64,000 bases of DNA. Origin: Chloroflexota bacterium (GTDB lineage: Bacteria; Chloroflexota; Anaerolineae; B4-G1; DUEL01). Made by a program: the position numbers and the translations under genes. The DNA lies in contig JADBJJ010000023.1 of the NCBI GenBank assembly GCA_014874475.1, positions 314,001 to 378,000 on the forward strand, given 5' to 3'. Below, piece by piece: positions 15,043 to 60,464 of this stretch. Under the pieces are notes generated by a model. The model worked only from the letters and a program-made list of their open reading frames with translations, searched no databases and was not told where the DNA came from. The stretch's first letter is position 1, and each line of letters begins with the position of its first letter.

Positions 15043-15414
15043 CTACCGCATACCCCGGATGATGTGATAGATGGCCTTCACGCGGAACTGCCGGTCGTTG
15101 GAAGCCTCCAGAAACCGCTGGATGAGACGGCGGACCTCTGGATTGCTGGAGAGGGAGTACACGGTCATCTCTCCCAGCCGTTGCTCCACCAGCACACCCT
15201 GCGCGGCCAGTTCCGCCAGTTCCGCCTGGGTGGCTTCCACGTTACGGCCTGCGTAACGGGCGATGTTCTCTGCCGTGTCGGTGGTGTAGGGGTTTTCTCC
15301 GAAAAACCGGATCAGGTCCCATTTCACGAAAGAATTCACCTGCGTGCGCAGAAAGTTCAGAAGTTCCGGGTCCATATCCGCCATTACCCGGCCCACCAGG
15401 TCTTCACGCTCCAT
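15043..15414 (-). CDS. Small winged-helix-like protein paired with the KaiC-like ATPase
   Basis: This 123-residue protein starts at an ATG with GGAGGACTTCT upstream. Residues 20-90 read as a helix-turn-helix/winged-helix fold: WDLIRFFGENP, then TAENIARYAGRNVEATQAELAEL, then a wing-like QRLGEMTVYSL, followed by a C-terminal helix RRLIQRFLEA. It lacks a ligand-binding domain. Being the first gene of the seven-gene operon and only 23 nt before the ATPase, it is a plausible DNA-binding or adaptor partner of that ATPase. This is inference from position, and no DNA target is shown. Confidence 0.75.
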   Translation of the reverse strand: MEREDLVGRVMADMDPELLNFLRTQVNSFVKWDLIRFFGENPYTTDTAENIARYAGRNVEATQAELAELAAQGVLVEQRLGEMTVYSLSSNPEVRRLIQRFLEASNDRQFRVKAIYHIIRGMR

Positions 15415-15459
15415 AGAAGTCCTCCGATCATTGACGACTGGCGACGGACCAACACTCTC

Positions 15460-15840
15460 CACTATCTTTGCACTTTCGGCCCAGAGACAGATTGAGCGGA
15501 TCAACAAGCCGCCAAATATGGGAGAGCGATCGGTTTCTGAGCCCAGATGCGGTGGGTAGTCTCCCCGCAGAACGTTGCTGAATTCACCACCGCGCAAGAA
15601 AGCCGGGTTTCGTTTGCTAGATAAGGGCAGGCGCACCATCCCAATATCGGCCCCACCCCCCCAGCCCCCCTCCCCCCACGGCTGCGCCGGGCGGGGAGAG
15701 GGGATCGGGGAATAAGGGGGCGATAGGAGCCCCGTCCTGTGTCAGCACAAACTTTGCTGATGAGCCAACAGCGGTATATTTTCAGCAACACCGAAGGAAA
15801 AGTACCGTACGGTGCGCTCCGGCAAAGTGCAAAGATAGTG
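15460..15840. repeat. 17-bp inverted repeat flanking repeat copy A
   Basis: CACTATCTTTGCACTTT at 15460-15476 is exactly complementary to AAAGTGCAAAGATAGTG at 15824-15840. The two arms lie 347 bp apart and enclose repeat copy A. This could be an older palindrome into which the repeat inserted, or the ends of a larger element. The 17-bp arms are absent from the other two copies. Confidence 0.65.
15574..15789 (+). repeat. Dispersed repeat, copy A (216 bp, perfect 9-bp terminal inverted repeats)
   Basis: It begins GTTGCTGAA and ends TTCAGCAAC, a perfect 9-bp terminal inverted repeat. Shared blocks with copies B and C are, in order, CGCGCAAGAA, GCCGGGTT, a GATAAGGGC-like block, GGCCCCACCCC, a C-rich/G-rich hairpin core around CGGCTGCGC, CCCCGTCCTGTG and GCTGATGAGCCAACAGCG. 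No long ORF is conserved. It lies between secA and the operon head. Confidence 0.75.
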
Positions 15841-52554: not shown

Positions 52555-52627
52555 TTTTGTAAATCTGCCAGATAGGTTTCAATTCTGTGACAAGTCGCTA
52601 TCTTCCGACGTGCTGGGCTCATAAAGG

Positions 52628-52825
52628 GTTACTGAATCTTCACCGCCGCGCAAGAAGGCCGGGTTCCGTTTCCTGGATAAAGGCGGGCGTACTATCCAGC
52701 ATATTGGCCCCACCCCTCTGCCCTCCCTCCCCCGCCCGGCTGCGCTGTGCGGGGAGGGGGCACTAAAGGCCCCATCCTGTGGCACCAACTCGGCGATGAG
52801 CCAACAGCGTTATCTTTTCAGCAAC
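52628..52825 (+). repeat. Dispersed repeat, copy B (198 bp)
   Basis: It begins GTTACTGAA and ends TTCAGCAAC (8 of 9 inverted). It shares with copy A the blocks CGCGCAAGAA, GCCGGGTT, ATTGGCCCCACCCC-like sequence, the CGGCTGCGC hairpin core and GATGAGCCAACAGCG. It sits between divergent genes, in the same orientation as copies A and C. Confidence 0.75.
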
Positions 52826-52963
52826 CCTCAGGAGAGAGATTACCGGCTGGGGGTGGTGGCAAGGAACCGCGCCGATGGCTCGTCCGAGGCGCCGCTGGGG
52901 GGTAAGGTGAGAAAACGGCCCGCCGGCCCTCTGTCCCAACTCGTGTCTGAACCTCGGGCCGGC

Positions 52964-52991
52964 TTGACAATTACCGGAAAAGGGCTATCAT
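52964..52991 (+). promoter_or_regulatory. Promoter for the acyl-CoA ligase gene at 53084
   Basis: TTGACA (52964-52969) and TATCAT (52986-52991) are separated by 16 bp. Confidence 0.7.
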
Positions 52992-60224: not shown

Positions 60225-60253
60225 ATTGTACCATGAAGGCGATAATGTGTCAA
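60225..60253 (-). promoter_or_regulatory. Promoter of the tetR-epimerase operon
   Basis: On the minus strand, TTGACA (60248-60253) and TACAAT (60225-60230) are separated by 17 bp. Confidence 0.8.
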
Positions 60254-60271
60254 GTTCTATGCCGACGGTCT

Positions 60272-60440
60272 ATCCAGGCTGAGTTCCATTTCCTGGATAA
60301 GAGCGGACGCGCCATCCGCCATATTGGCCCACCCCGCTCCCCACTCTCACAGCCGCGCCGTGCGGGGAGAGGGCGCTAAAGACCCCGCTCTGTGCCAGCA
60401 CCAACTTGGCGATGAGCCAACAGCGTTATATTTCGGCAAC
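60272..60440 (+). repeat. Dispersed repeat, copy C (5' end degraded)
   Basis: Homology to copies A and B starts near CCAGGCTGAGTTCC (GCCGGGTTCC in B) and continues through CCTGGATAAG, ATATTGGCCC, the G/C hairpin core, CGCTAAAGACCCCGC and GATGAGCCAACAGCG, ending TTCGGCAAC. The left terminal repeat is not recognisable. Confidence 0.7.
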
Positions 60441-60464
60441 GCTCAGGAGGGGGATTGCCTCCAT

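Follow-up and report, generated by a model that had tools for sequence, protein, structure and literature searches.

MITE-type elements are a known kind of mobile DNA (PMC10969869; PMC6382973). The nearest parallel to the repeats described here is MITEAba12 of Acinetobacter, a short gene-less element that has only its ends in common with a coresident insertion sequence, ISAba12 (PMC6382973). According to that report, MITEAba12 is 111-114 bp long and mostly uniform, has the ends GGCTTTGTTGCACAAA and makes 9-bp target duplications, which are present at 40% of its copies (PMC6382973). Our family resembles it in being gene-less, in the sharing of ends and in having duplications at a fraction of copies, and differs from it in that copies retaining both ends span 133-292 bp and many copies are eroded. 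The same source describes an ISAba3-related insertion sequence of the IS1 family, with 24-bp ends GGTGGTGTTTCAAAAAGTATGCTG, that bounds the composite transposon Tn6645, around which there are 8-bp duplications (PMC6382973); the ends of our Anaerolineae elements differ from these IS1-family ends after the first bases. There is also a likeness to REPs as described in PMC3733652, for the element's central hairpin is a short G/C-rich palindrome and similar ones stand alone in congeners. REPs differ from this family in that what is dispersed here is the entire element with its terminal inverted repeats and target duplications. We found no description of this family or of its partner among the matches listed for literature searches by topic and by end sequence. 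The kind of mobile DNA is ordinary; the hairpin that fills it is unusual.

The window, by which we mean the whole 64,000-nucleotide stretch of DNA analysed here, holds three repeats of one family. A preliminary description had claimed that they share ordered blocks in the same orientation, and this was borne out by an alignment of copies A, B and C, all on the + strand, with a mean column identity of 77%. It had also reported inverted repeats at the ends, and here it was right about the repeats and wrong about the boundaries: the true ends lie about 20 bp farther out, and the sequences GTTGCTGAA/TTCAGCAAC that had been taken for the ends are really the inner part of an inverted repeat of about 28 bp. 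The features in the window are as follows.

15547..15554: left target duplication of copy A (probable), ATGCGGTG, equal to the right one at 6/8 positions, read by eye
15555..15806, + strand: copy A, full element, 252 bp (nhmmer match G000:C21:329555-329802, corresponding to window 15555-15802)
15555..15582, + strand: 5' terminal inverted repeat of copy A, GGTAGTCTCCCCGCAGAACGTTGCTGAA, differing from the class-wide end pattern at 1 position
15665..15703, + strand: G/C-rich hairpin core of copy A
15781..15806, + strand: 3' terminal inverted repeat of copy A, eroded, ending in ...GTACC
15807..15814: right target duplication of copy A (probable), GTACGGTG, read by eye
52609..52844, + strand: copy B, full element, 236 bp, with an eroded 5' end (8 mismatches) and no target duplication (2/8)
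52721..52760, + strand: G/C-rich hairpin core of copy B
about 60276..60459, + strand: copy C, 5'-truncated element, its 5' end missing
60338..60372, + strand: G/C-rich hairpin core of copy C

Copy A is flanked by the 3' end of secA on one side and, on the other, by the 5' end of an ORF on the minus strand that has no Pfam match. Open reading frames cross the copies, and the one tested (15043-15639) had no Pfam match. Copy B lies between divergent radical-SAM/TRAM and AMP-binding genes and copy C between divergent TetR and cyclic-di-AMP receptor genes.

A BLASTN search with copy B against this genome (G000; 3,015,132 bases in 32 contigs) returned at least 42 matching pieces, 40 of the 74 candidates having been scored. 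We then count the family at 36 or more places in the 3.0-Mb genome. Of the 36, 12 retain both ends, 14 keep just the 5' end and 8 just the 3' end; the other 2 are internal pieces, one of which (C2:18655) consists of the core alone. This count comes from a profile of ten two-ended copies that gave 43 raw places, from which six opposite-strand self-overlaps were dropped and one split copy was joined by hand; since the profile was run on 37 loci rather than on the whole genome, 36 is a lower bound. Further copies thus exist genome-wide, and the earlier worry that matches might be limited to the low-complexity core is answered by the places that match at one end only. Aligned in one orientation, the copies have the true ends GGTAGTCTCCCCATAGAGGGTTGCTGAA (5') and TTCAGCAACCCTCAGGAGGGAGACTACC (3'), which are inverted copies of each other except for a four-base spacer and scattered changes. 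When up to 3 mismatches are allowed, the genome has 21 matches to the 5' end pattern and 8 to the 3' one, and none to the reversed control patterns. In a full copy, a central G/C-rich hairpin and two non-coding arms stand between terminal inverted repeats of about 28 bp (GGTNGTCTCCCNNNNGAGNGTTGCTGAA), and there is no gene. As a separate observation, one 5'-only copy, in L025 (1490-2123), lies just upstream of an RNase P RNA gene (Rfam RF00010, 1666-2123).

Better ends and target duplications had been named as a check on the mobile-element reading, and both were found, the duplications being 8 bp long. We compared the flanks of 35 two-ended elements. This genome supplied 16 of them, namely 14 members of this family, another short element and a full-size one; the other 19, of which 7 are full-size, belong to relatives. 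The poorly ended L003 and L091 were kept in the set. At fixed boundaries, a perfect 8-bp duplication was present at 9/35 elements and at 0/1190 mispaired flanks, and at least 6 of the 8 positions were equal at 11/35 as against 5/1190. When the boundary was allowed to shift by up to 4 bp, identical 8-mers were found at 11/35 elements and 1/1190 mispaired flanks. Within this family, perfect duplications stand at fixed boundaries around 2/14 copies, L006 (GGCAAAGC) and L012 (GATCTTCC); with the shift, L020 (ATGAGGTC) and L021 (CAAGCGCG) bring this to 4/14, and none of the other 10/14 has a perfect one. The pair around copy A is eroded: the agreement of 6/8 read by eye becomes 4/8 by script, with the right end placed 2 bp farther, and 6/8 again with the shift. 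Perfect 8-bp duplications also surround short elements with other interiors (L142, L151, L152, L198 and L199).

Further support for insertion comes from orthologous sites. The A and B regions were compared by BLAST with loci from six congeners, and the flanks were found there and the element was absent. All five congeners with both flanks of copy A on one locus are without the element, the distance between flank matches being 11 bp in G003 and 213-506 bp of other sequence in the others (465 in this genome). Both congeners that have the two flanks of copy B also lack it, with 130 bp (G003) and 71 bp (G004) between the matches. Because of divergence in the intergenic DNA around both copies, these absences are not base-exact empty sites. 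The clearest case is the well-preserved copy in L006: it lies inside a hairpin loop, and in G004 the corresponding hairpin runs without interruption. In G001 and G003 the host hairpin is not preserved in that form. A target preference for hairpin loops was considered and set aside: L006 scored 12 against a background maximum of 6, and as one of 15 sites it makes no rule (the L028 row of that test was mis-delimited). Copy C presents a different picture. On its right, homology to four congeners begins at 60461, 2 bp past the 3' end of the element, and the flanks of the copy lie on different contigs in 5/5 congeners where both were found, a break in synteny (60233-60461). We infer that copy C may mark a point of rearrangement or large insertion, which would explain its missing 5' end.

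In the IS1 family, ends begin with GGT and duplications measure 8-9 bp, and in IS1 a frameshift at an A-run joins two ORFs. Elements of about 1.2 kb with an IS1-related transposase carry the same ends as our repeats, and one of them, degenerate, is in this genome; the transposase gene with matching ends that the preliminary description had suggested looking for thus exists both in the class and, in decayed form, here. Their likeness to the IS1 family lies in the GGT-start ends, the 8-bp duplication, an N-terminal zinc-binding domain and the match to an IS1 model. The element at L131:1501-2699 is 1199 bp long and has both ends (GGTAG/AGTAG) and a perfect duplication, CACTTTTG; that of L168 also has both ends (GATAG/GATGG, a one-base departure from GGT) and a duplication, CGAACGAA. 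The first ORF of L131 matches the NCBIfam IS1 transposase model (E 1.3e-18) and an IS1/IS1595 zinc-binding domain, and in a further search the N-terminal part of the transposase matched the IS1 model with E 2.6e-21 and 5.2e-16. These scores are below the curated cut-offs (76.5 vs 100 bits for NCBIfam NF033558; 20.6 vs 24.1 bits for Pfam PF03400). Neither C-terminal piece, of L131 or of L163, matches an IS1 model, and one of them has a weak IS256 match (E 4.6e-4). IS1 is the best family match of a transposase that we therefore call IS1-like and do not count as a member of IS1. It also differs from IS1 in size, with 380 aa in the one-frame L172 against the 199 positions of the IS1 model, which it matches below the cut-off. 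Structure prediction gave too low a confidence to be of use (mean pLDDT 51.1), and a sequence search of solved structures with the transposase gave just weak zinc-finger matches.

The full-size elements that share the MITE ends mostly have interrupted transposase frames. Five of the nine elements read (L131, L163, L164, L165 and L167) have an A7 run at the change of frame between ORF A and ORF B, and in the remaining ones the ORFs are fused or the A7 run is absent; L172 alone among the nine has one long frame. The A7 frame change resembles the A-run frameshift of IS1, and its presence in five diverged IS1-like elements may reflect programmed frameshifting. L131 has a second frame interruption downstream and so is probably broken too.

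Matches to the ORF A piece of L131 occurred in 44 of 298 class genomes, this one included. The best homologue in this genome (74% identical, G000 C11:2925-3374) belongs to element L163, which is 1182 bp long and has both ends. L163 has eroded ends and no target duplication, its transposase departs from the others at a conserved motif, and by our own count only about 20-21/28 bases of its end are common to the MITE end. The genome's four other homologues (36-59% identical) have no end within 5 mismatches. With these four lacking ends and L163 seemingly inactive, no intact partner was found in this genome. Near homologues with at least 50% identity, an end within 6 mismatches was found at 17/19 loci, both ends at 8 of them, as against 1/11 for weaker homologues; a reversed control pattern was found at 1/19 and 1/11, respectively. 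This co-occurrence indicates that the ends go with this IS1-like transposase. An end-like stretch with 6 mismatches, GGTGGTCACTCCCTTGAGTATTGATAAG (L194 567-594), lies by a weaker IS1-like homologue of this genome (41% identity) and may be a more divergent form of these ends.

The ends themselves are found beyond this genome. With few mismatches allowed, the end pattern was present in 31/396 class genomes and in 9/199 relatives, this genome included in each case, against two control matches in all for the former and one for the latter. At many of the loci compared just one end was seen, and fourteen other short elements of 100-191 bp, one of them from this genome, could be delimited with both ends. 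This genome's second short element, L192 (C12:544-708, 165 bp), has the same IS1-like ends and an unrelated interior. Genome G216 has 21 matches to the end pattern, and of the 10 places listed at least 4 are no more than 150 bp from the end of a contig, as though the assembly had been interrupted by repeated elements. The exact form of the pattern was found in five stretches of GTDB genome contigs, four of which are from Chloroflexota: an Anaerolineae MAG has two, and another Chloroflexota MAG and Candidatus Thermoflexus tengchongensis have one each. The fifth, in a Bathyarchaeota MAG, was set aside as probably due to chance, since it comes from another domain and departs from the full 28-bp pattern at 2 positions; no second end was found for it, which is equally true of the four Chloroflexota stretches at that threshold. 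Five viral contigs share one sequence that resembles the end pattern and is without the outer end bases.

Taken together, the copy number, the ends, the target duplications, the absence from orthologous sites and the full-size partners point to a MITE family. The repeats are short, multicopy and without coding capacity, with inverted repeats, a duplication of constant 8-bp length and ends common to a full-size element, as bacterial MITEs are. We are highly confident that they are an old MITE family with IS1-like ends that would have been mobilised in trans by an IS1-related transposase, and the early suggestion of a MITE-like small mobile element is upheld by the added copies, the improved ends, the duplications and the matching transposase. 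A full-size element with the same ends would make the transposase, which would bind the terminal repeats and insert the gene-less element; host repair would then turn the 8-bp stagger into a direct repeat. Judging from the shared ends, the MITE was probably mobilised by the IS1-like enzyme, and the partner transposase is now decayed in this genome. The family looks old since most copies are one-ended or eroded and the genome's own partner is eroded, without a duplication and altered at its motif. Movement of the copies is read from sequence comparison.

A search of 98 relatives with a whole copy matched the core only, in 8 of them, every match listed falling within query 96-151; no more than 8 candidates were scored for each genome, so that the absence of arms there is not exhaustive. 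We read 12 core loci (11 from congeners and 1 from another genome of the order), of which 11 show arm-less hairpins, CCCCTCCCC...GGGGAGGGG, and the twelfth is cut by a contig end. Conversely, two-ended copies of 133-170 bp are without the core (L023, L021 and L017). Arm-less hairpins in congeners and core-less copies here thus mark the core as a separable, REP-like part. Something of the kind, more loosely, may apply across the class, where interiors tend towards palindromes. The interiors of the fourteen other short elements match one another beyond the ends only within three small groups. Strong folding (interior z of -3 or lower) was found in 9/15 well-delimited elements against 2/66 neighbouring control stretches, L106 and L142 being left out as wrongly delimited; some of the 15 interiors are related (three are copies of this family, one with z +0.85), so there are fewer independent cases. 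A scan of 263 records found no stand-alone copies of the 14 other interiors, and the interiors of this family matched, away from any nearby end, the congener core-hairpin loci L061, L062 and L081 as well as L003/L027, which is a single copy of the family that has lost its 5' end. We tentatively raise the idea, itself somewhat doubtful, that one IS1-like system across Anaerolineae repeatedly packages unrelated palindromic repeats within one and the same pair of ends, the MITEs being modular carriers by which REP-like hairpins spread and not shortened insertion sequences. If this were true, short palindromes could spread without a transposase of their own.

A strong hairpin core beside genes could also bring to mind a regulatory RNA or cis-acting leader, in which copies upstream of genes are kept since the folded RNA controls expression. 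Copy A does fold well (z -3.86), as does L017 (z -5.01), and the three window copies are intergenic beside genes, with one further copy just upstream of RNase P RNA. Yet copy B folds no better than its shuffles (z 0.53), and over 10 copies the RNAalifold covariation term is +1.47, which is unfavourable, with changes on both sides at 6/39 pairs. Beyond the ends, the arms are not old inverted copies of each other either, 1222/2000 shuffles scoring as high. Promoter scans of the surroundings of copies A and B found no promoter-like match around A and four around B, all outside the element; the sole strong one at B (52964-52991) is kept in G003 and G004, which have no element there. Rfam recognised in the window only one tmRNA and four tRNAs. 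The regulatory role that had been proposed from the hairpin and the position is thus very unlikely. A passive effect of insertion on neighbouring genes is possible, as with any insertion.

The core hairpin also recalls a REP/REPIN family, moved by a RAYT (Y1) transposase, in which the G/C hairpin would be the functional unit and the arms its passengers. It resembles the stand-alone hairpins of congeners, and GTAG-type REPs have been reported in Chloroflexi, according to PMC3733652. What is dispersed here, however, is a unit with terminal inverted repeats and 8-bp target duplications. Single-strand transposition of the RAYT type is not expected to yield such duplications flanking terminal inverted repeats. 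Moreover, the two-ended copies that have lost the core retain their duplications in L021 (8/8 with the shift) and L023 (7/8), and we consider an origin of this kind extremely improbable. As for the enzyme, the ends might belong to another DDE transposase family such as DDE_Tnp_1 or ISL3, the two searched for in this genome. There are 6 DDE_Tnp_1 matches in the genome, but none of these loci has the ends (the only matches there have 8 mismatches), no ISL3 transposase was found in it, and across the class the ends track the IS1-like transposase, which makes this the least probable of the readings weighed.

Under the reading as an IS1-like MITE family, an anonymous repeat is now tied to a recognisable type of transposition machinery. 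The rules for ends and targets can be used to annotate similar non-coding repeats in Anaerolineae. The same rules may account for part of the intergenic spacing, for spurious upstream extensions of ORFs, as inferred at copy A, and for some rearrangement points, as copy C would seem to illustrate.

Two further repeats deserve mention. A perfect 17-bp inverted repeat, CACTATCTTTGCACTTT / AAAGTGCAAAGATAGTG, encloses copy A (15460-15476 and 15824-15840, about 350 bp apart); it is absent from all other loci compared except L009, which is the same place, and it may represent an older, second element or a pair of terminators. L122 1370-2489 is occupied by a different insertion sequence, which has the ends GGCTTTGGTGCA and whose flanks have CTTTCCAAT in common; an end-like stretch similar to its ends lies near the IS1-like element of L163.
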